64,000 nt of DNA from Thermodesulfovibrionales bacterium (GTDB taxonomy: Bacteria > Nitrospirota > Thermodesulfovibrionia > Thermodesulfovibrionales > SM23-35): NCBI GenBank assembly GCA_031082155.1, contig JAVHLL010000001.1, positions 89,058-153,057 on the forward strand, written 5' to 3'. Shown piece after piece: positions 8,744 through 53,342 of the stretch. Under the pieces are notes generated by a model. The model searched no databases and was not told the DNA's origin. It worked only from the letters and a program-made list of their open reading frames with translations. Made by a program: the position numbers and the translations under genes. The first letter of the stretch is position 1. Every line of letters begins with the position of its first letter.

Positions 8744-9632
8744 TTACTTGTCCAAAGGGCTCCGGACGCCGAGGATATTCTTTGTTGCGACGTGAGTATA
8801 GATCATGGTCGTCTGAAGATTGGTGTGTCCCAAGAGTTCCTGAATCGTCCGGATGTCGTAGCCGTTTTCAAAAAGATGGGTAGCAAAACTATGCCTCAGC
8901 GTATGAACCGATGCCTGCTTTGTTATTCCAGCTTTCATTCCAGCGACCTTAAATGCCCTTTGTAAAGCATCATGGGGCCATTAACCGATTGATACCTGAC
9001 ATCCCTGAAACTATTCTGTCAACTTCCTTTACCGACAAAACAACAGGCAACCTCCGCTTCTGCTTTGCCCTAACTGCATTGATTTCACCTTCTATGTTTT
9101 TATCAAACACATGGCGGTAAAGAAAGACAATCGCGTTAAGCGCCTGGTTCTGGGTCGAGGCAGACACTTTTCTTTCAACAGCAAGATAACTGAGAAAATT
9201 CTGTAGATCCTTTCCATCTAAAGAATTGTGATGCTTCCCATCAAAGAAGCCCTGAAACTGACGGAGCCATAGAATATAGGTTTTTTCCGTGCTGTATGAT
9301 CTATGACGAAGCCTTAGCGCTTGTCGCATCTTCTCCTCAATTTCTTTCCAGTCACCCTGATTATCGACTGAAGGCTCACCTTCGCTTATTTGTTTACGGG
9401 TGAGAAAATAACCGTACAACCTCAATGCCCTGTCAGCCTGCTGAACCTGCCAGTCCTCATGCTTTTTTGTTAACCGGCTGAGAAATTCGGCGGTCTGCTC
9501 ATTTGTAAGCGACTGCGTTTCGGGTTTGTCGACAAATCGATAGCAGTCGGAGACCCATTTTACGTAATATGGGGCATTCTTTTTGGGAACTCCTTCCTTA
9601 TCCATTAAGAACTGTTCAAACGATTGCAGCAT
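8744..9632 (-). pseudogene. intI: integron integrase (IntI-type tyrosine recombinase), internally deleted
   Basis: Two fragments of one gene remain. The 5' part (8970-9632, 220 residues) has the SAM-like N-terminal domain (FEQFLMDKEGVPKKNAPYYV) and ends after the family motif LPVVLSVKEVDRIV at [13 protein letters not shown]. The 3' part (8744 to about 8974) keeps [25 protein letters not shown] and the tyrosine in TTMIYTHV plus GVRSPLD, an IntI-like tail. Aligned by eye to IntI1, about 130 residues between RLMA and [12 protein letters not shown] are missing, and the junction (about 8973-8979) also shifts the frame. The lost part includes the first catalytic arginine and the integron-specific patch. 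The protein should be inactive, so the array could move only with an integrase acting in trans. Confidence 0.85.
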
Positions 9633-18451: not shown

Positions 18452-19864
18452 TCAAAGGTTATCAGGAAATACAATGATCTGGTTGCGACCTTTATGCTTT
18501 GCCGCAAAGAGGGCCTGATCCGTCAAGGAAATAAGGTCGTCAGGGGTTTTTATCTGCTCGTCGGGAATACACGCAATACCCATGCTCACGGTGATTCTGT
18601 CATTGTCTTCCAGGCCCATAAAGCGATATTCTTCAACGACTTTTCTTAATTCTTCGGCTTTCATGACAGCTTCTTCTTTCTGTATCTCCGGAAGTATCAT
18701 GATAAATTCTTCGCCTCCGTATCTGGCAAAGATATCAGAGCGTCTTGTCCTCCCGCGAATGAGCTGCGCGAATTCTCTCAGCACAATATCTCCGATCCTG
18801 TGGCCATAGGTATCATTTATCCTTTTGAAATAGTCGAGATCGAACATAATGCATCCCATCGGTGTGTTATATCTCACCGACCTGCTGAATTCATCTTCAA
18901 GTCTCGAATAAAAATATCGGATATTATAAATCCCTGTCATATAATCTGTGATGGCAAGCCGTTCGAGTTGTATGTTTTCCCGTTCAACCTTCTCATGCAG
19001 GAAGGCATTGTAAAGGGCGTTTGCAGATGTATTCGCGATGGCAGAACAGAGATTCATTTCCCGTGCGGTAAAGGTGCGGCCTGTTTTTGATGCCCTCAGC
19101 AGCAGGATGCCGATGATCTCATCATGGAAGACCACAGGGAAAACCGCTATAGACCGGACCCCCAGCGGTTTAAGGATATCCACCACATCTTTCATGAGGG
19201 GGTCTTTGAGGGCATCTTTTACCAAGAGCGGCTTTTTGAGTAATATGGCCTGTTTTATTTCAGGGTGTTTTCCAAGGTCAAGCCTGGTGTTGGTGACTCC
19301 GGAATCTTTGTATGAGGAAACAACATATGCAGAGGTCTGATCTTCAGTGTCTATGCTGATTATGGAGCAGTGCGTACCACGGATAATTTCCGCAATCTTT
19401 TGTACGATGAGGTGCAGTGCTTCCCCAGGGTCCAGGGTGGCTGAGATCAGGCAGGTGAATTCCAGCAGTGATTCGAGATCTTTCTTTTTTGTGTCAAGGA
19501 GCTTAATCCAGTTTCTCCTCGCCATAGCAACCTTGAGTTTATAGTCAAGATCTTCCTGATAAAACGGGCTTATGAGATAAGAATCTACGGCTGTTTTGAG
19601 AACAGCACGGATACCGCTGGTGAGAAAGGCTGACGATATCAGGGCAATTACTGGGCATGGAATTTCCGAGGCGTCCAGATGTTTAAATCCGAAAGGGCTC
19701 TCAACAAGCAGGGCTGCAGGTTTTTTCTTAAGACAAGCGCTCTTAAGATGCATGATATCTTTTTTGAGAATAACCGGGGAGTACTTCGTATGGCTTTCGA
19801 AAAAGGACCTGAGGAAATTCAGGATAGGCAGGTCTTGTCCGTAAATGAAAATATTTTTTTCCAT
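18452..19864 (-). CDS. diguanylate cyclase (degenerate receiver-like, GAF, GGDEF)
   Basis: The 470-residue protein has an N-terminal receiver-like domain lacking a clear phospho-acceptor aspartate, a GAF domain (about 135-290) and a GGDEF domain (about 305-465). The active site reads RYGGEEFIM and the inhibitory I-site RRSD stands five residues before it, so c-di-GMP synthesis with product inhibition is expected. It is transcribed divergently from the KaiC/XRE/cupin gene. Confidence 0.9.
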   Translation of the reverse strand: MEKNIFIYGQDLPILNFLRSFFESHTKYSPVILKKDIMHLKSACLKKKPAALLVESPFGFKHLDASEIPCPVIALISSAFLTSGIRAVLKTAVDSYLISPFYQEDLDYKLKVAMARRNWIKLLDTKKKDLESLLEFTCLISATLDPGEALHLIVQKIAEIIRGTHCSIISIDTEDQTSAYVVSSYKDSGVTNTRLDLGKHPEIKQAILLKKPLLVKDALKDPLMKDVVDILKPLGVRSIAVFPVVFHDEIIGILLLRASKTGRTFTAREMNLCSAIANTSANALYNAFLHEKVERENIQLERLAITDYMTGIYNIRYFYSRLEDEFSRSVRYNTPMGCIMFDLDYFKRINDTYGHRIGDIVLREFAQLIRGRTRRSDIFARYGGEEFIMILPEIQKEEAVMKAEELRKVVEEYRFMGLEDNDRITVSMGIACIPDEQIKTPDDLISLTDQALFAAKHKGRNQIIVFPDNL

Positions 19865-41282: not shown

Positions 41283-42290
41283 TTACTTCCACACCCCCGC
41301 TATTGCAAAATCACATGCAGGGCATCTGTCATCTTTCAGAATATTTTCGGATATCCTAAACCCGAAACGTTTGATAAGCAGTTTTTTGCACTGAGGACAA
41401 TAGGTGTTCTCCCCTCCTTCTCCGGGGACATTCCCTTCATACACATACAGAAGACCTGTTTCAAATCCGATTTCCCTTGCTCTGCGAAGCGTCTTCACCG
41501 CTGTCCTTGGTTTATTGGTCAGCCTATATGTCGGAGAGAACTGGGTCACATGCCACGGGATAGAAGGATCAACTGATCTGATGAATTCTGCGATATCCCG
41601 AAGCGATTTTTCAGAGTCATTGTGATCAGGGATGATCAATGTGGTAACCTCAACCCAGACCCCGAGTTCCTTCATGCGACGGATCGTATCTTTGACCGGT
41701 TCGAGCCTGGCGCCGCAGAGTTTTTTGTAGAATTCGTCATCCCCCTTGAGATCAATATTGTTCCCGTGGAGGAAAGGCGCAATCTCCCGCGTAGCCTCCG
41801 GACTTGTGTAGCCGTTGCTCACAAAAACGTTCCTGATGCCCCGATCCTGTGCAAGCCTGGCACAGTCATGGGCGAATTCAAAAAAAATGGTGGGTTCAGT
41901 ATAGGTATAGGAAATACTCTTGCAGCCATACCGTCCTGCAGCGTCAACTACTGCTTCGGGAGTGGCAGACTGTCCGATAATCTCAGGATGTTCCTTCGGA
42001 GACTGTGATATTTCGTAATTCTGACAATGGTCGCAATGGAAATTACATCCTGCCGTTGCGATCGAGAATGATGTGGACCCCGGAAGGAAGTGAAAAAGAG
42101 GCTTCTTCTCGATGGGATCGACATTCATCGAAACGAGTTTTCCGTAGACGAGAGAGTACAGTGTCCCCTCTCTGTTCTCGCGGACGGCGCAGATTCCTCT
42201 CTTCCCATCCTTTATGACACAATGGTGGGCACAGAGAAAGCACCGTACTTTGTTGTCGCCAAGCTTTTCGTAAAAGCGCGCTTCTTGCAT
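41283..42290 (-). CDS. amrS: AmmeMemoRadiSam-type radical SAM protein (PflA-like)
   Basis: The 335-residue protein has a Cys-rich N terminus (CFLCAHHCVIKDGKRGIC), the radical SAM cluster CNFHCDHC (about residue 82) and a C-terminal rubredoxin-like pair (CPQCKKL, CPACDF). It matches the AmrS family found with AmmeMemo partners, which are not in the window. The reaction is unknown. Confidence 0.9.
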   Translation of the reverse strand: MQEARFYEKLGDNKVRCFLCAHHCVIKDGKRGICAVRENREGTLYSLVYGKLVSMNVDPIEKKPLFHFLPGSTSFSIATAGCNFHCDHCQNYEISQSPKEHPEIIGQSATPEAVVDAAGRYGCKSISYTYTEPTIFFEFAHDCARLAQDRGIRNVFVSNGYTSPEATREIAPFLHGNNIDLKGDDEFYKKLCGARLEPVKDTIRRMKELGVWVEVTTLIIPDHNDSEKSLRDIAEFIRSVDPSIPWHVTQFSPTYRLTNKPRTAVKTLRRAREIGFETGLLYVYEGNVPGEGGENTYCPQCKKLLIKRFGFRISENILKDDRCPACDFAIAGVWK

Positions 42291-44904: not shown

Positions 44905-45432
44905 TTAGACAAAGGCTTTTTTGATACGGCGCAGTAATCCCGCAAGCGCAGGGTGAGAGGCGATTTTTCCCTTTCCGAGGCTAACCAGGGCAAGGGAGAA
45001 ATTCATTGCTTTCCATATCGGCAGCTCCATGTCAAGATGTTTTTCCCTGTAATCTGCAATGGTCCTTTCTACCCTGCAGACCTTCCCGAGAATGTTATGT
45101 TCCGTGACAAGTTCATCCATCGTGGACACAGCATCTCCCTTTGTCCTGAAGAGACAGACATTGTCTCTTCCCCGTTTTTTCTCAATAATTCGATGCAGGA
45201 CAGGAAGCTCCTCCGGAGTCTTAAAAAAAATCAAATCTCCTATCCGTAAAGAACCCGGCAGAACTTTCCTGATTGTCAAAATTTCTCCGCTCCGAAGAAA
45301 GGGGGTCATACTGTTCCCTGTTACTTGTATCCGGATGCTGAGACCTTTTGCAAGGATATCTTCGAGCAAAGCTATCTTTTCAGTATCCAGAACCTTCGAT
45401 GACAAAGGCGTATTTGCGGATTTCTTTTTCAT
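44905..45432 (-). CDS. S24/S26 signal-peptidase-like protein of the RiPP-type cluster
   Basis: From the ATG at 45432 the product is 175 residues, with the S26/S24 catalytic region QVTGNSMTPFLRSGEILTIRKV (Ser at about residue 40) and DLIFFKTPEELPVLHRII and LFRTKGDAVST for the partner-residue region. The open frame extends upstream to 45561 but the ATG at 45432 is one base after the preceding gene's stop, which points to coupling. It is the last gene of the cluster and could remove a leader or signal sequence. Confidence 0.78.
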   Translation of the reverse strand: MKKKSANTPLSSKVLDTEKIALLEDILAKGLSIRIQVTGNSMTPFLRSGEILTIRKVLPGSLRIGDLIFFKTPEELPVLHRIIEKKRGRDNVCLFRTKGDAVSTMDELVTEHNILGKVCRVERTIADYREKHLDMELPIWKAMNFSLALVSLGKGKIASHPALAGLLRRIKKAFV

Positions 45433-45433
45433 C

Positions 45434-46308
45434 TCATGAAACGAATTTTTCCAGCATATCGACAACTTCGGAATCGGGTTTGAAATGCAGTATATGGGAG
45501 GGGATATGTGTAATAAGATCATCGCAGAATGCAAGGATATTGGACATCGGTTCAGGGGCATACCATGGGATGGAGGAAACCGGCAGAAGTTTTTCTATGG
45601 TAGTGACAGGGGAAATATCTTCTATCATATTTGTGTTGCTCTGAGCGAGAAAAAAGATACCGCCGAGAGGAACCCCGCGGTTTACGGCGAAACCGCCTTC
45701 GCCATACCAAGGGGTACCAAATGCAAGAAAATCACCATCGATTTTTCTGATAAAAACGCGATCATCGCTCAGAGGAGTTTCGGAATATTTTGTGATGAAC
45801 TGCCTTGACAGAGTTGTCTTCCCGGCGCCTGATCGTCCTGCAAAAAGATAGCTTTTTTTATTTATCTCGATCGCTGCTGCATGAATCAGGATTCCTCCCC
45901 TTGATGAAAGGTGAAAAACGAGCAGTATCTGGTCGAGAGGATAGTGAATAGGATTCGTGAGATTTCTTGTATTCCCATCCGGCTGTATCATGAGTTCACT
46001 GCAATAAACGTCTGCTTCAGAGAAATCGCTGTTCATTCTTGCCGTCCAGAAAGGCTTGTCAAAAGAAGGCGGGGAAAAGTTCACATAATAGTCGGTTCCA
46101 TCGCGGAACATCGACCAAGATTCTTCGGCGTCAAAAATTTTTTTAACCCGTTGATATTCGGTATATCCCCGAGATTGACTTCCACCTGAATATCGGGAGA
46201 GGATGCCTCTTTTTTGAAGAATTCCTCATAAGCCTTGTCCTGATGAGCAAGAAACAAAGGAATAGTGCTGACAACATGAATTTTTACCCCGGCAATCTCA
46301 ATAATCAT
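45434..46308 (-). CDS. HPr-kinase-like protein, interrupted by a -1 frameshift at an A7 run
   Basis: Two overlapping frames make one HprK-like protein of 291 residues: a start at 46308 (MIIEIAGVKIHVVST) and, after a shift, RDGTDYYVNFSPPSFDKPFW and the P-loop FAGRSGAGKTTLS. At 46138-46144 (minus strand A AAA AAA) a -1 slip turns LKKFLTP into LKKIFDAEESWSMFRDG, joining them smoothly. It may be programmed slippage, or an indel from sequencing or mutation. HprK-like kinases recur in peptide-modification clusters (for example near PqqD-like carriers); the substrate here is unknown. Confidence 0.75.
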
Positions 46309-46333
46309 ACTGCACGGAATAGAAGCGACGAAG

Positions 46334-46501
46334 TCAGGATTTTATAACCCCTGCACATTTGCGGACAGCACAAGTCGGTGTAGCAGGCCCACCTCCTGCA
46401 TGTGTTTTGCACCCGACGGCAAGGACTTCATCTGCGGTGAGATCTATTGCTCTCAGTTTAGGTTTTTCGTACTTTTGTCCATGTTTTTGGTTCTCTTTCA
46501 T
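46334..46501 (-). CDS. putative RiPP precursor peptide (55 residues)
   Basis: This short gene starts in an ATGA overlap with the radical SAM stop codon and was found by reading the gap between the radical SAM and kinase genes. The N-terminal part is charged (MKENQKHGQKYEKPKLR), followed by AIDLTADEVLAVGCK, which looks like a leader/recognition segment, and a Cys-Gly-rich core with cysteines at 31, 44 and 49 and the stretch HAGGGPATPTC. Position, size, overlap and composition all fit a precursor modified by the adjacent radical SAM enzyme. No PQQ, SCIFF or sactipeptide precursor is a close match by eye. Confidence 0.7.
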   Translation of the reverse strand: MKENQKHGQKYEKPKLRAIDLTADEVLAVGCKTHAGGGPATPTCAVRKCAGVIKS

Positions 46502-47601
46502 TGCAATACCCTCCTTGCTTGTCTGAACTGCTGAATCCTTTCGTAACGATATCCCCCCATTCTGCAGATATACTCAGAATACACTTCTGCAGAACCTTTT
46601 TCAAGCCTGAAGAATGGCGGACAATACCCGCAGACATTCCTGCTGAGGCAGTTTGTGCATGCAAAGTCAGGAGGAGGTTTCAGGTTAAAAATAAGGGGAA
46701 TGACACTGTTCCATCCTGTCAGGAAACTACCTTCTCGCAGGTTATATTTTACCTCTGTGGTCATAAGACAGGGGGTAAGATTCCCGTATGCATCGATATG
46801 GAAATGGGTAATACCTGCTCCACAATGATATATTGAATCCAATGGCTGAGGATCGGCATGGTTGAGGGAAAATATTTCCCATTCCCTGTATTGTTTAGGA
46901 TCAGAAAATTCTCGTTCTATCGCCTCTTCGGGTGACACGCGGAGTTTCAGGGGAGTCTTGTCACCATCTAAACGCGGGAAAATTGCTGCATCAAAACGAA
47001 ACCGGACGCCGAAATCCGCGGCTATTTTTTCAATTGCCTGGAATTCGTGGTTGTTGATGGTCATGAGCACTGTTTTCAGTCTGACACGGATATTCCTCCC
47101 GAGGAGTTTTTGTATCCCGCTCAGGCATTGCTGATATGATCCCCTGATGCCGGTGATTCGTTCATATGTTGCAGCGGTTGCACCGTACAGACTGATCTCG
47201 ACGGATTCAGGAGGGAGTTCTTCAAAAAGATCAAGGATATGCTCATTGATCAGTGTCCCGTTTGAAAAAACGATGGGGAGAATGCCGTTTTGCTTGATAT
47301 GTCTGTATATCTCATCGAAATCATTTCTCTTGAGTGGTTCGCCGCCGGTGATGAGGAGTTCAAGGCACCCGGCATCAGTGATCTCATCAATTATGGAGTG
47401 GACCATGCGGGTATCCATTTCCTGGGAGTGCGCCTTATGCCTGTCAGACGGTTGCCCGACATAACAGTGGACGCAGCGCAGGTTGCATGTATGGGTGAGA
47501 TTTATACTTCCTGATAAGGGAACCCTGAGCTGTTCGGCCTTCGCATTAAACTGCCGGAAGTATTCTTCCGTGCTTATTTGCCCGGTTCCTGTGCATTCCA
47601 T
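46498..47601 (-). CDS. radical SAM/SPASM peptide-modifying enzyme
   Basis: The 367-residue protein has the radical SAM cluster THTCNLRCVHCYVG (about residues 35-48), ITGGEPLKRNDF and a C-terminal SPASM-like Cys set (CGAGITHFHIDAYGNLTPC, then CTNCLSRNVCGYCPPF). This architecture modifies ribosomal peptides by thioether or C-C crosslinks. It is placed between PqqD-like and precursor genes, and overlaps the precursor gene by 4 bp. Confidence 0.9.
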   Translation of the reverse strand: MECTGTGQISTEEYFRQFNAKAEQLRVPLSGSINLTHTCNLRCVHCYVGQPSDRHKAHSQEMDTRMVHSIIDEITDAGCLELLITGGEPLKRNDFDEIYRHIKQNGILPIVFSNGTLINEHILDLFEELPPESVEISLYGATAATYERITGIRGSYQQCLSGIQKLLGRNIRVRLKTVLMTINNHEFQAIEKIAADFGVRFRFDAAIFPRLDGDKTPLKLRVSPEEAIEREFSDPKQYREWEIFSLNHADPQPLDSIYHCGAGITHFHIDAYGNLTPCLMTTEVKYNLREGSFLTGWNSVIPLIFNLKPPPDFACTNCLSRNVCGYCPPFFRLEKGSAEVYSEYICRMGGYRYERIQQFRQARRVLQ

Positions 47602-47605
47602 CTCC

Positions 47606-47908
47606 CTATACCTCAGTGATCAGGTCTTCCTTCAGTAGCTCTCTGATAAAATCCCGGATATCGGCATCAGCCTGTTCCCTATCAACTTCAAAGTTATTGA
47701 GGATTCCTTTACAAATATCATCGAGGCTTTTTGTTCCATCACAGTTTTTCCAGATGAACTCAGCAACGGGATTCAGGGTAAAGATCCTCTGCATATCCGC
47801 GAGCCTGCCCTTGATCGGGACCAGAATAGTTTCACCGGCGATTGAACGATTGACGATTTCATCTTTTTTCTTAAAGGTCTTTCCCCGGAATTCCTTCTGA
47901 TCGCTCAT
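47606..47908 (-). CDS. PqqD-family peptide chaperone
   Basis: The 100-residue protein has the PqqD/RRE fold pattern (VNRSIAGETILVPIKG... NPVAEFIWKNCDGTKSLDDICKGI... EVDREQADADIRDFIRELLKEDLI). PqqD-like domains bind precursor leaders and deliver them to radical SAM enzymes. The gene lies 4 bp before the radical SAM gene and 7 bp after the C25 peptidase gene. Confidence 0.87.
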   Translation of the reverse strand: MSDQKEFRGKTFKKKDEIVNRSIAGETILVPIKGRLADMQRIFTLNPVAEFIWKNCDGTKSLDDICKGILNNFEVDREQADADIRDFIRELLKEDLITEV

Positions 47909-47915
47909 ATCATCC

Positions 47916-50900
47916 TTATTTTACCAGAAGCGCAGGATCACCGAGCAAGATATATTGCTCAAGCAATGAACCCGAAATTCCGGACGTTTTGGCACGTTTC
48001 AATGCATTCAGAATTATGTCACCAAGCGTCTGTTTTTGCCTGTTCAGGAAGAAGGCATTGAATATTTCCCTGTCCAGGACTGCAGCCTCTGAATTTATTG
48101 ACAGGCTGGAAGGGGCAAATACTGCAATAACACCGCCGTTCTCTTTCAGGAGCATTTCCTCTCCCAGGGTATCATATCCGGGGAAAGAGAACAACCCGAT
48201 CATACAGGTCATGGCAGTTAAAACTGGGAGGTTCCCCCCATTCTTCATACTACTTACATCATCTGATACGATAAGCCCGTCCTGGGCGAGTCTGTCTAAT
48301 CCCGCATGGCCGATGAAATTCACCAGCAGCGCTCCCTGATTTATCCCGTCCATCACCAGTTTTCGTGCGTCTCCAATGGGGTGATTCGAGAGATAGATCT
48401 TTTTCTGAATATATGTTTGGGGCGTTTGGAAAGCAACCATATCACTGTCAGCAGGGAAATTACCCCCCGGTTCCGGATAATCAGCAAGAAGGAGGATATC
48501 TTTCGTCCAGCTACCGAAAGAGCTTTCGTATGCCTTGATTTTCTCTATGAGAAGCTGCAGTTCCTGGGGGGTTATGACCGGCAGTCTTCCGATGGCCATT
48601 TCGGGGATATGATCCCCGTTTGTATCTGCATAATAAGTATCTGATGGTGCAATGCCGTCAACAGTCCCGATCATGATCGGCGGCAGGAGGTTTTCGGCAA
48701 ACCCCTGAATATCTTTATAATCCTCTGTTCCGTGACCAACAAGGACTACAGCGCGGGATTTTTGGAACCGCGAGGATACGGAAAATGCAGTTGCGAGAAA
48801 ACGTTTAATAGCTTCAGGAGAGTATATCCCATAATTGAACTCGTCCATAATGTCTTCAAGTTCTACAACCATGGGCTTCAGCCCCCTGCTTTTCCGGTAT
48901 TCAGAGAGAGAGAGTGCCCCTTCTTTGAGTTCTTTCGGTGTTATTATCAGATAATCAATATAGGTAAGAGGTCTTGTTAACTGGGAAGCAGTATCTGTCA
49001 CTATGGAGATAGGGGCGCTCATTGCATTCCGATGAATTGCAAGATAATTGGTGTTTGGTGATGAAGGCACAAAACTTATGCGGTATGTAGCGTCATCAGT
49101 GGTGTCAATAGTGGCTGCTTTTACAAGTTTCGGAGCACGGGGGTTGGCTGTGTCAACTACCATTATCTCGGGTCCGCTGAAACCGGAGACGGTAACCACA
49201 GGGTTGTTGTCTCCTCTCAGGAACAGTTTATCATTTACTGCCTTATAAAAGCGGTGATATCCCATATCAAAAGAATCGACCAGGAAAACACTGTAAGGGA
49301 CCCCTGTATCAAGGATGCCGGTAACGGAGATATTGTTATTGCCTTCAGTAAGATATGAGTGACTGAAAGATACCGTGAACGTATGAGATTTTGTTCCATA
49401 CCATATACTTTCACCGACAGGTGTGCCATTGATACTGACTAAAACATGGTGGTCTGTTAACGTCGCCCCAAAGAGATTGACGGTGAGCGTTGCTTCCTGA
49501 GCTGAAGAGGCGATATCCCTAACCTCTGTCGGGAAATTTACAGTTCCGAACACCGGGTCATCTGCAAATACGTAATCCCAGAGCCAATAGTCGGAATCAG
49601 GATCTGTGAACAGTCCTGTCGCTGCCCACCAGTCTTCCTCATAATGGATTGTATCAAAGAACGTTTTGTTGTCTGCGGCAGGAACAGGGCCGGTACCGGA
49701 TATGATTGGCATCTGTGTCCCTGTCCTTTTTTCAAGCCAGTATACATTCTTATCCGTATAGACATTGTTCAACTCCTGTCCATAGAAGTATATGCCCGAT
49801 TTATCGTCTGCAATCAAATAGGGAACCTCCTGCCCCCCGGTTGTTATCTTTAATTGAGTGCTTCCGTACAGTTTCGCGATATCAGTCCCGAGGAATGAGA
49901 ATAATGTTGCAGAATCAATATAGTAAAGACCTTTCTCTCCGGTAGTTACCTTGGTCTTTGTCCCTGCTGTCACAGGGGGTGGTGCAGGATCCGAAGGAAC
50001 CGGCTGAGGACTTTCGGATGGCGGGCGTGAACCAAAGGCCTGCTTCTGTAACGCTGCTGTCAACCTGATTTTTTTCGAAGGTGAAATCTCATGTGCTTTT
50101 CTGCTGTAACCGGTTTTTGTAAAGACCGGGTCTGCAGAGGCTGTTTTTTGCTCGTTTGTATTCACATGGTAGGGACCATAGGTGTGACGTTTGCCGCTCG
50201 ATTCGATTTCAGTCAGAAGATAGGTATATACAAGCCCTGGTATTGCGCTCTCATCGATAAAGCGGTATTCACCGCCCCGCCGGGATGTAAGGATGCCGGG
50301 TATGAGTTTCTGATTTAACTGAAGATAATCGCCGGTTATTTCGTCCTTGCGATACAGATAAAATCCGACAGTGCCTGTTTCTGAATCGGTATCCCATTCA
50401 ACTACTACTTTACCGTTTTCCGTATGGCCTGAAAAGGATGATACGACTACACGGGTGATGATTAATTCGCAACTCTCAGCAGCGGCAGCATAGGTCCAAT
50501 CACCTGGAGTATTACTGTCGTATCCTGAAGTACTTCTTATGAGCGCCTGGCCTGGTGCTATAACACCGACATTCACGAATGCGTCGTCCTGCCAGACTTT
50601 GGCTGTCACTGCAGGCGAATCGTCTCCGAGAAAATCTATATTCGGATTGAGCGTAGAACTCCATCCGACATAATCGATGAGTTTTCCGTTTCCATCGAAC
50701 AGCAAAATCTGATCTGAAGGTTCAGCATCGAGAGGGTCGGCGAATTCAATCGATGGGGACGAGATGCAGGTGTTTGTACCACCACAGTTGCTATCCAGAG
50801 AGCAGGGGATATTCTGGTCATTTGAACAGTATTTCCTTCTTACGTCTGCGAATAAATAATATGCGTTATTGGCTCCGTCGTATCTGTCTACAGGAACGAC

Positions 50901-53342
50901 TGTGAAAAGACTGAAATCAAAAAGCGAAATATAGATCCTTTCTCCCGGTAGTAAATTAATCTCCTGGCTGCCGTTCAACAGCGGAATTGTATAGGTAAAT
51001 GAGTCACCGTCGGATATCGTATATTCGTTCACATTCACTGTAAACGGTGTGCTGTTATAAAGCTGAACATATTCCAGCGGGCATGAGATTTCTAACTCAC
51101 CTCCAAACAGAGGATAGAAATATGCCTCGTTGATGACGAGAGAGGGAGCATTATAGGTTGCAATGTCGGTCTTGTAATTATTCGTCGAATCATTGTCACC
51201 ATCATTACAATCACGGTAGGTAACTGTAAGAGTGTCGCCATTTTTTGCATAGAGAATATGATCGCCATCGGTGGAAGCGCTTTCGCCTGTCAATATTTGA
51301 AGACTATCACCTGTGTTCATATAAACAGATGAGGAAATCGAAGCAATAGTTATTGTCTCAGAATCTACCGAACTTGAAATTATTACGCTATTGGGAGGCG
51401 ACATGCACGCGGATGAGTAGTTCGTATCCACTATTTTTACATACACCGACTGCCCTGGGCCATAAAGTTCGATGTCCTGTGTGCCGGTCACATTCGTGAA
51501 ATCCACTCTGCCACCCAACGAGGTCGAGAAAAGGGATGAGGTTGTGGTTTCGGTGCCTCCACAGGCCTTGGTGTATGTTCCCGTGACACTTCCTCCGTCG
51601 CTTGATTCCCAGAGACCGTCATTTGCGACAATGGGCAGGACAGCAATTTGTGTATTCAGCCCTGTAGTATTGCGGAAGACGCCCGTATTATTCCCGGTTT
51701 CTGTCAAGGTAAGTGTCTGTGTGTCACCGCCGGTGCCGCCGCTAAGATTCACTGAAATAGTCTGTACAGTATTTGGATTGGTATTTGCTGCAAAATCAGT
51801 GATTGTCACGTAAAGCTTGTCGCTTGTATTCACGTTGTTTGTGAGAATGAAATAATCGGCAGGCAAGCCGTTTGCACGGGTGAATTCTATCAATACATCA
51901 CATGTGTCGAGTACAACCGCGCTATCTGTGACCGTGTAAGCATTGGTATTTGTATATGAAACATATAACGTATCTTTTGACACTACTTCAAGTGAACCAC
52001 TGTTGTCACTGTCATTAGGAGTTCCAACTGAAAGGGTAGTGGGAAGCCCCAAAATACATGTTTGTCCTGATGGACAACCTCCATCTGATGTGCAGGAGGT
52101 AGTTATTGCGATTGAACAGTACCCTGAATAAGTTGTGAATATCCCTGTGCTTGGTCCAGTCTCTCTTAGGGGAATGACCTCATCATCTCCGGTATTTGGG
52201 TTGGTGACGGTAACCTGAATATAGTCTATTAATCCACTATTTACATTTGCAAAGCGGTCGCTGACATAAAGAAAGATATGATCGGGGTCAGGTGAGGAGT
52301 TTGTATCAGGGGTTGTATAGATACTGACAAAATTGAAGGCACTGTTGGCGAATTCGATGATCGGTGTGCCCTGCGGGATAATGATATCTCCGAAGGTTAT
52401 CGGGTCGGCGTTAGAAATCCAGTTCAGGTCCATCATCCAGTCCTTCTGCAGAGGGTCCTGATTTGAGGTGCCGGTTGAGTATACAAAGGCAACAGGGGAA
52501 TCGGGATAGAGCAACTGGTTCCCGTAGCTGTCGACAAAAGCTGTCATCGGAACCTGTATTTCTATATAGTAATCGCCTGAGGTGTCGGCTGGATCAAGCG
52601 CGGTAACCGGGAGTCCCCGCGTATGGGATGATAAAGCAGAAACGCACAGAGGATCAGGATTACTTATTGTTGGTGTATATTCTGCCGTGAAATAATTGAC
52701 TCTTACGCCAGGAGCATCAGGGTCGAGAGTCTGGTCATTTCTATTATCATAGAGGATATTGAGACGATCATAATCTTTTGTTGCGTAGCTTCCTTCAAGG
52801 TCAATCCAGTACTCCTTATATCCGTCCGCATCGACGTCTAAAAGAATATTCCAGTGATACTGGTTAAAATTGTTGCCGTTTTTTTCAGGGCTGCCTGATA
52901 TGCGCATGCGGAAAAAGATATAGTCATCTTCCATAGAAGAAGGGTCTAACGGTACATAGGGAGTTCCCCCGTTATAGTATCCGAAATAAGGGGTGGTTTC
53001 CATGCCCGGATTGATGCTTGATGTCGCTGCTGAGGCAAGGTCCGTTTCTTCAGGTGGAACGTTCGCCTGTCCATGAGAAGGATCACCGGAACCAGTGGCT
53101 TCATGGTCCTTTATCGCTTGCCCTTTATAGGTATAATCAGCAATAAAGCCAGGGTCATTGGTAAAATTGTTCCAGTCAGTTGCGCAGTCGTTGAAACCGG
53201 CAAAGGCCGGTGAGATGAACGCAAGCAAAGCAAACAGCAGGAAAAGGATTTGAACAGGCGCTTGCTCTCCGAGTTTTTTCGAAATATTTTTTAGATGCAT
53301 ATGTTCCCCCATATGTAGTGACTGTTTTTTCATGTCAGACAA
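47916..53342 (-). CDS. large secreted C25 (gingipain-type) peptidase with lamin-tail-like and FN3-like domains
   Basis: The 1808-residue protein has a signal peptide (ILFLLFALLAFISPAFA), a long beta-rich N-terminal region with two C-x7-C-x5-C-x5-C clusters (about residues 410-430 and 838-858), a lamin-tail-like segment (about 745-930), an FN3-like segment (about 965-1075), and a C-terminal C25 domain (about 1460-1808). Catalytic candidates are His in NFIGHAGLDRL and Cys in LTAMTCMIGLFS. The ATG at 53300 (MHLKN, after gggggaac) is an alternative start. It heads the cluster with PqqD, radical SAM and precursor genes, so it may be co-regulated with, process, or itself be matured by that system. 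Confidence 0.85.
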   Translation of the reverse strand: MSDMKKQSLHMGEHMHLKNISKKLGEQAPVQILFLLFALLAFISPAFAGFNDCATDWNNFTNDPGFIADYTYKGQAIKDHEATGSGDPSHGQANVPPEETDLASAATSSINPGMETTPYFGYYNGGTPYVPLDPSSMEDDYIFFRMRISGSPEKNGNNFNQYHWNILLDVDADGYKEYWIDLEGSYATKDYDRLNILYDNRNDQTLDPDAPGVRVNYFTAEYTPTISNPDPLCVSALSSHTRGLPVTALDPADTSGDYYIEIQVPMTAFVDSYGNQLLYPDSPVAFVYSTGTSNQDPLQKDWMMDLNWISNADPITFGDIIIPQGTPIIEFANSAFNFVSIYTTPDTNSSPDPDHIFLYVSDRFANVNSGLIDYIQVTVTNPNTGDDEVIPLRETGPSTGIFTTYSGYCSIAITTSCTSDGGCPSGQTCILGLPTTLSVGTPNDSDNSGSLEVVSKDTLYVSYTNTNAYTVTDSAVVLDTCDVLIEFTRANGLPADYFILTNNVNTSDKLYVTITDFAANTNPNTVQTISVNLSGGTGGDTQTLTLTETGNNTGVFRNTTGLNTQIAVLPIVANDGLWESSDGGSVTGTYTKACGGTETTTSSLFSTSLGGRVDFTNVTGTQDIELYGPGQSVYVKIVDTNYSSACMSPPNSVIISSSVDSETITIASISSSVYMNTGDSLQILTGESASTDGDHILYAKNGDTLTVTYRDCNDGDNDSTNNYKTDIATYNAPSLVINEAYFYPLFGGELEISCPLEYVQLYNSTPFTVNVNEYTISDGDSFTYTIPLLNGSQEINLLPGERIYISLFDFSLFTVVPVDRYDGANNAYYLFADVRRKYCSNDQNIPCSLDSNCGGTNTCISSPSIEFADPLDAEPSDQILLFDGNGKLIDYVGWSSTLNPNIDFLGDDSPAVTAKVWQDDAFVNVGVIAPGQALIRSTSGYDSNTPGDWTYAAAAESCELIITRVVVSSFSGHTENGKVVVEWDTDSETGTVGFYLYRKDEITGDYLQLNQKLIPGILTSRRGGEYRFIDESAIPGLVYTYLLTEIESSGKRHTYGPYHVNTNEQKTASADPVFTKTGYSRKAHEISPSKKIRLTAALQKQAFGSRPPSESPQPVPSDPAPPPVTAGTKTKVTTGEKGLYYIDSATLFSFLGTDIAKLYGSTQLKITTGGQEVPYLIADDKSGIYFYGQELNNVYTDKNVYWLEKRTGTQMPIISGTGPVPAADNKTFFDTIHYEEDWWAATGLFTDPDSDYWLWDYVFADDPVFGTVNFPTEVRDIASSAQEATLTVNLFGATLTDHHVLVSINGTPVGESIWYGTKSHTFTVSFSHSYLTEGNNNISVTGILDTGVPYSVFLVDSFDMGYHRFYKAVNDKLFLRGDNNPVVTVSGFSGPEIMVVDTANPRAPKLVKAATIDTTDDATYRISFVPSSPNTNYLAIHRNAMSAPISIVTDTASQLTRPLTYIDYLIITPKELKEGALSLSEYRKSRGLKPMVVELEDIMDEFNYGIYSPEAIKRFLATAFSVSSRFQKSRAVVLVGHGTEDYKDIQGFAENLLPPIMIGTVDGIAPSDTYYADTNGDHIPEMAIGRLPVITPQELQLLIEKIKAYESSFGSWTKDILLLADYPEPGGNFPADSDMVAFQTPQTYIQKKIYLSNHPIGDARKLVMDGINQGALLVNFIGHAGLDRLAQDGLIVSDDVSSMKNGGNLPVLTAMTCMIGLFSFPGYDTLGEEMLLKENGGVIAVFAPSSLSINSEAAVLDREIFNAFFLNRQKQTLGDIILNALKRAKTSGISGSLLEQYILLGDPALLVK

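Follow-up and report, generated by a model that had tools for sequence, protein, structure and literature searches.

The minus strand of the window, by which we mean the whole 64,000-nucleotide stretch of DNA analysed here, carries a compact group of six genes at positions 44905-53342. In order, these encode a C25 peptidase, a PqqD-type RiPP recognition element (RRE), a radical SAM enzyme, a small precursor peptide, an HprK-like kinase and an S26 peptidase. The C25 and RRE genes are separated by 7 nt and the RRE and radical SAM genes by 4 nt; the radical SAM and precursor genes overlap by 4 nt; the precursor and kinase genes lie 25 nt apart; and the kinase and S26 genes are almost in contact. 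Because the spacing is so compact, the six likely form a single operon. The initial annotation listed the same six minus-strand genes in this order, and all are present, with two amendments: the HprK-like gene occupies two reading frames, not one, and the likely start of the S26 gene is 45432 instead of 45561. Scans for repeats, promoters and terminators, and a search of Rfam, returned nothing relevant. A further radical SAM gene (41283-42290, minus strand; PF04055, 82 bits) lies outside the cassette, and by eye resembles those of AmmeMemoRadiSam systems.

The first gene (47916-53342, minus strand) encodes a secreted, gingipain/PorU-like peptidase of 1808 aa, much as the initial annotation described it: it carries a signal peptide, scores 257 bits against PF01364, above the cut-off, and has the catalytic His and Cys of peptidase family C25. 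The annotated start codon is TTG, and the true start is uncertain by a few codons. Matches in the PDB are to PorU and the gingipains, which share its catalytic domain, its His/Cys pair and its secretion. It differs from them in belonging to a RiPP operon, and in the placement of the catalytic domain at the very C-terminus (approximately residues 1464-1805), after a large variable region. The His and Cys are invariant in 20 of 20 relatives. These, too, have signal peptides and large, variable N-terminal regions, which in some members include SdrD_B, DUF11 or LTD domains. Identity with the type IX secretion sortase PorU is rejected, since the NF033707 model requires 420 bits and the protein scores 228.

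Next come the RRE (47606-47908, minus strand; 100 aa; PF05402, 68 bits), whose best match among solved structures is TbiB1, the RRE of a lasso system (E 4.7e-5), and a radical SAM/SPASM maturase of 367 aa (46498-47601, minus strand; PF04055, 77 bits), both proteins scoring above the Pfam cut-offs. The maturase has the CxxxCxxC motif and seven cysteines in its SPASM region. Its score against the SPASM model is under the cut-off, although these cysteines are present and invariant: Cys 39, 43, 46, 260, 278, 315, 318, 324, 327 and 346 are conserved throughout 13 relatives. Sactipeptide and ranthipeptide maturases (e.g. SkfB, CteB and PapB) have the same SPASM architecture and also act on Cys-containing cores, but the window enzyme reaches the cut-off of no named maturase model in NCBIfam, matching the mycofactocin and PqqE models in part. 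No plasmid-borne relatives were found at E 1e-40.

The kinase gene comprises an N-terminal part in a first frame (46081-46308, minus strand), which aligns with the N-termini of the intact kinases of relatives, and a catalytic part (45434-46111, minus strand; P0006) with H77, GRSGAGKT, SDD and GTPW motifs. These motif columns are conserved in some 40 relatives, with the same residue types as in lasso kinases, and the H, Walker A and DD motifs that characterize the kinases of linear polyphosphorylated peptides (LPP) are all present, spread in the window over two frames. By its sequence, the protein appears weakly HprK-like: a phmmer search of the PDB gave no match, and a profile search gave weak HPrK and PEPCK matches among chance matches to Walker A proteins. 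A predicted structure (pLDDT 36) was discarded. The last gene (44905-45432, minus strand; likely start, the ATG at 45432) encodes an archaeal/SipW-type S26 peptidase (TIGR02228, 64 bits; cut-off 51.85), the predicted leader peptidase. Its Ser, His and Asp are invariant in 39 of 39 proteins.

The precursor (46334-46501, minus strand) is 55 aa long, with the leader YEKPKLRAIDL, a Cys at Y+20 (counting from the leader Tyr), three cysteines in all, and a C-terminal Ser. It matches nothing in Pfam or NCBIfam. Its family is real and sharply delimited, and a leader-only profile found 49 matches. Among 35 non-redundant members, whose leaders carry [Y/W]xxP, Pro occurs at Y+3 in all 35 and Cys at exactly Y+20 in 33. 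Position Y+8 is V or I, Y+10 is L or M, and Y+13 and Y+14 are mostly E, D or Q. The core varies freely, but usually contains three cysteines (CK..C....C) and usually ends in Ser.

The same gene set is found elsewhere. A first search found the radical SAM enzyme in 15 of 61 genomes, and an alignment search in 39 of the 176 genomes of the order; scanning genome contigs with the single protein added only one locus. In profile searches of 42 loci (the regions fetched around radical SAM matches, the window counted), the RRE, radical SAM enzyme, kinase and S26 peptidase occur together unless the contig ends too soon, and precursors of the family are present in nearly all cassettes. The full order, C25-RRE-rSAM-precursor-kinase-S26, reappears in many of the 42. 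A Verrucomicrobia bin (L019) has it too, on a single low-coverage contig whose assignment to the bin is insecure. This recurrence, in the same order and in divergent genomes, is not due to chance. The initial annotation had read the locus as a RiPP-type cluster and had pointed out its precursor; the co-conservation of precursor, RRE and radical SAM enzyme supports this, and the lack of co-occurrence that it named as contrary evidence does not arise, since the radical SAM and PqqD genes accompany the precursor in nearly every locus examined.

More distant loci, at the level of the class and in family f29, which we take to be Nitrospira-like, contain the RRE, one to three radical SAM enzymes, the precursor, the kinase and the S26 peptidase without C25. 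Those of f29 (L091-L097, several from single-contig genomes) have two or three radical SAM genes, and larger precursors ending in RPS or RAS. One genome region, L077 (3559-7876), holds a second, distant cassette of two radical SAM genes, RRE, S26 and kinase, with a Gly/Cys-rich candidate precursor. Precursor-like ORFs with YQKP or YRKP leaders adjoin distant radical SAM/RRE/kinase/S26 sets, in or near polysaccharide loci, at L031:1369-1545 and L032:2946-3119, and end in Thr and Ser. In seven other cases (L021, L028, L062, L064, L066, L074 and L076) the cassette adjoins apparent exopolysaccharide genes for Wzc-like and export-like proteins, joined in L064 by a beta-barrel porin.

The closest described counterpart is LPP (lppA/K/B/S/D/N), published in May 2026, whose core consists of an RRE, a YxxP leader, an HprK-like kinase and an archaeal-type peptidase (PMC13381572). 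The window operon shares all four—a discrete RRE, the YxxP leader, the HprK-like kinase and the SipW-like S26 leader peptidase—and some of its relatives share the polysaccharide-gene neighbourhood that is frequent among LPP clusters, which have been reported only from Bacillota (PMC13381572). Since four of its six parts are already known as the LPP core, there is nothing odd about the kinase or the signal-peptidase-like protein; the initial annotation was right that both are there, but not in treating them as unusual additions. The differences are equally plain. The operon adds the C25 protease, a core with three cysteines and a radical SAM/SPASM enzyme, and its host, probably a member of the Nitrospirota, does not belong to the Bacillota. 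LPP is phosphorylated at core Ser3, while in the window it is the C-terminal Ser that is conserved and predicted to be the phosphosite. The window precursor does not conform to the LPP motif YxxPxVLxHQxIxFETxxS, with its Ser at about Y+18. The NTP-transferase and MsbA-like exporter of LPP are absent from the window cassette; the genome has one of each, on other contigs. In one relative, L030 (5562-11426), a nucleotidyltransferase-like protein and an MsbA-like ABC transporter are both encoded beside the kinase, radical SAM enzyme, RRE and S26, and from its gene content this hybrid cluster appears to bridge LPP and the window cassette.

Paeninodin-type and Bsf lasso systems share the RRE-read YxxPxL leader and the HprK-like kinase, and the paeninodin type shares the C-terminal Ser, a phosphosite there and a predicted one here. 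They lack the radical SAM enzyme, however, and the window product is not a lasso peptide: none of the six genes identified encodes a lasso cyclase, and the genome contains no B2-type leader peptidase (PF13471). SynChlorMet cassettes (TIGR04248-TIGR04251) resemble the operon in combining a PqqD-like protein (ScmD), an HprK-like protein (ScmC) and radical SAM/SPASM enzymes, but have two of the last where the operon has one, and no S26 or C25 peptidase. Against the ScmC, ScmD, ScmE and ScmF models the scores stay well short of the curated values (ScmD, 41.7 of 100; ScmC, 37.6 of 125; ScmF, 82.8 of 400), which removes this identification, and curated cut-offs likewise reject membership of the GeoRSP, PQQ and mycofactocin systems. 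In NCBIfam and the literature searched, no described class combines all six parts, as the initial annotation claimed. The RiPP core of RRE, YxxP precursor, HprK-like kinase and SipW-like peptidase is already known, from LPP; the radical SAM enzyme, the C-terminal Ser rule, the host range and the link to C25 we did not find described in that literature. The operon is best read as a branch of the phosphorylated RiPPs that uses radical SAM chemistry, a previously unrecorded relative of LPP.

More specifically, we think it probable that the operon makes a phosphorylated, radical-SAM-modified RiPP related to LPP and to paeninodin-type lasso peptides, with the phosphate on its C-terminal Ser and with C25 cooperating. 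The RRE would bind the YxxPxL leader of the precursor, an interaction known in lasso and LPP systems. The radical SAM/SPASM enzyme would then modify the core, most likely at the CK..C....C cysteines, forming, for example, thioethers. The kinase would phosphorylate the C-terminal Ser, in the manner of paeninodin, and the S26 peptidase, like LppS, would cleave the leader from the RRE-presented precursor near Y+15 to Y+17. In the window's subfamily, finally, the co-transcribed C25 protease might have the mature peptide as its substrate or partner at the cell surface, trimming it, releasing it or attaching it in a sortase-like way. Binding by the RRE, phosphorylation of the C-terminus and removal of the leader can be inferred on good grounds from the paeninodin, BsfK and LppS precedents, the conserved S26 residues and the match to TbiB1. 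BsfK, which has conserved H/G/K/S/D/D residues, is stimulated by its RRE, the precursor here too having a leader of the YxxPxL type (PMC10368454). LppS, an archaeal-type signal peptidase, depends on the RRE for removing the leader, and on its own Ser, His and Asp (PMC13381572). The reaction at the cysteines is probable on weaker grounds, and the C25 step, which is based on the dedicated linkage of its gene, is the weakest of the five. Two further points count against the pathway: the radical SAM enzyme reaches no named maturase cut-off, and the window's cassette contains no exporter gene.

The predicted phosphosite is suggested by the conservation of the terminal residue, a feature beyond the initial annotation, as are the kinase frameshift and the optional nature of C25 across the family. 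In paeninodin-type lasso clusters, it is the precursor's C-terminal Ser that the HprK homologs phosphorylate (PMC8498205). Ser or Thr ends 34 of the 35 non-redundant precursors (97%); the next-best hydroxyl column reaches 46%. To avoid circularity in this count, the leader alone was used as the profile: the last residue of its 49 matches is Ser in 46, Thr in 2 and Gly in 1, so that 48 of 49 are S/T, compared with 11% (Ser 7%, Thr 4%) of the other proteins of the same loci. The precursors are related, and the counts not independent, but circularity and chance can be rejected as the source of the terminal Ser, which is kept while the rest of the core diverges. The sole Gly-ending precursor comes from L086, which has a second that ends in Ser. 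The candidate in the distant L077 cassette ends in Asp, and so the rule may not cover all relatives. It is also conceivable that the Ser serves as a recognition element for the radical SAM enzyme or the S26 peptidase, and that the kinase targets another residue, such as a core Ser3, or another substrate. BsfK (PMC10368454) and LppK (PMC13381572) both act on core Ser3, which counts against a C-terminal site, and the window kinase bears only a weak similarity to known kinases. We consider this unlikely: the LPP-Ser3-equivalent position (about Y+18) is S/T in 26% of the non-redundant precursors, and the window precursor has Val there; the last residue is far more constant.

A second explanation, to which we would give about the same limited credence, is that the peptide exists to serve C25, the operon making, activating, inhibiting or decorating the surface protease, with the peptide bound or attached to it. 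The operon opens with C25, immediately ahead of the RRE gene, and the linkage extends well beyond the window. The order has 23 C25 genes in 21 genomes, and the radical SAM enzyme is present in all 21 (hypergeometric 8e-17, relatedness ignored). All but two of these genes are tied to the cassette: 19 lie inside it, and 2 in cassettes that are broken by contig ends or are remnants. C25 has joined the cassette in two positions, in two groups of the radical SAM tree: a large group of 18 loci together with L075 (its contig stops just past the RRE gene), and a second, small group in which C25 lies between the kinase and S26. In L022, two near-identical precursors (8773-8973 and 19285-19467) lie some 10 kb apart on either side of a giant C25 gene, as if one had been duplicated to its far side. 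About half of the cassettes, however, the Nitrospira-type ones included, lack C25, from which it follows that the protease is dispensable for the core pathway and that the peptide has a purpose apart from it. C25 is a dedicated accessory of part of the cassette family.

Somewhat less likely again is that the cassette is decaying in the window genome, and that the phosphorylated product is no longer made there. The kinase gene is the reason for raising this, and its two frames and weak similarity to HprK count against the pathway proposed above. In relatives, one uninterrupted frame spans the region (e.g. '..IFDSEQAWAMFRDG..' in L020), whereas the window kinase returns to their register only via a -1 shift in TTA AAA AAA TTT TTG, within an A7T5 run located by sequence and alignment (46133-46144, minus strand). 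Decayed copies do exist in the order: in L086, the radical SAM and kinase frames are both broken. Against this, the catalytic part of the window kinase is open from its own ATG, the remaining five genes are undamaged and keep their catalytic residues, and the break sits in a homopolymer, a frequent place for assembly error or slippage; it may represent programmed slippage, recent mutation or assembly error. Least likely by some distance is a small redox cofactor cut by peptidases from a degraded, modified peptide: a PqqD protein, a SPASM enzyme with partial matches to mycofactocin and PqqE models, and peptidases do follow the logic of PQQ and mycofactocin, but the core is hypervariable between genomes, unlike a universal cofactor, contains no dedicated Glu-Tyr or Val-Tyr type sequence, and leaves the kinase and the terminal Ser unexplained.

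The preferred reading of a phosphorylated, radical-SAM-modified RiPP places the RRE, HprK kinase and SipW-like peptidase in a second phylum-wide setting, joined to radical SAM chemistry. It makes a specific prediction, namely, a phosphate at the conserved C-terminal Ser, and the precursor family, with its fixed 20-residue Tyr-to-Cys ruler, should be useful in genome mining and engineering. The C25 peptidase gains a likely peptide partner, of which we found no report in the literature searched. Tentatively, and with rather less confidence than we place in the pathway, we suggest a new RiPP class of Nitrospirota-type bacteria in which a Cys peptide, modified by a radical SAM enzyme, bears a C-terminal (poly)phosphoserine as a tag for export or attachment and is finished or anchored by a dedicated giant C25 protease at the surface. 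If true, this would be a RiPP coupled to a gingipain-like protease.
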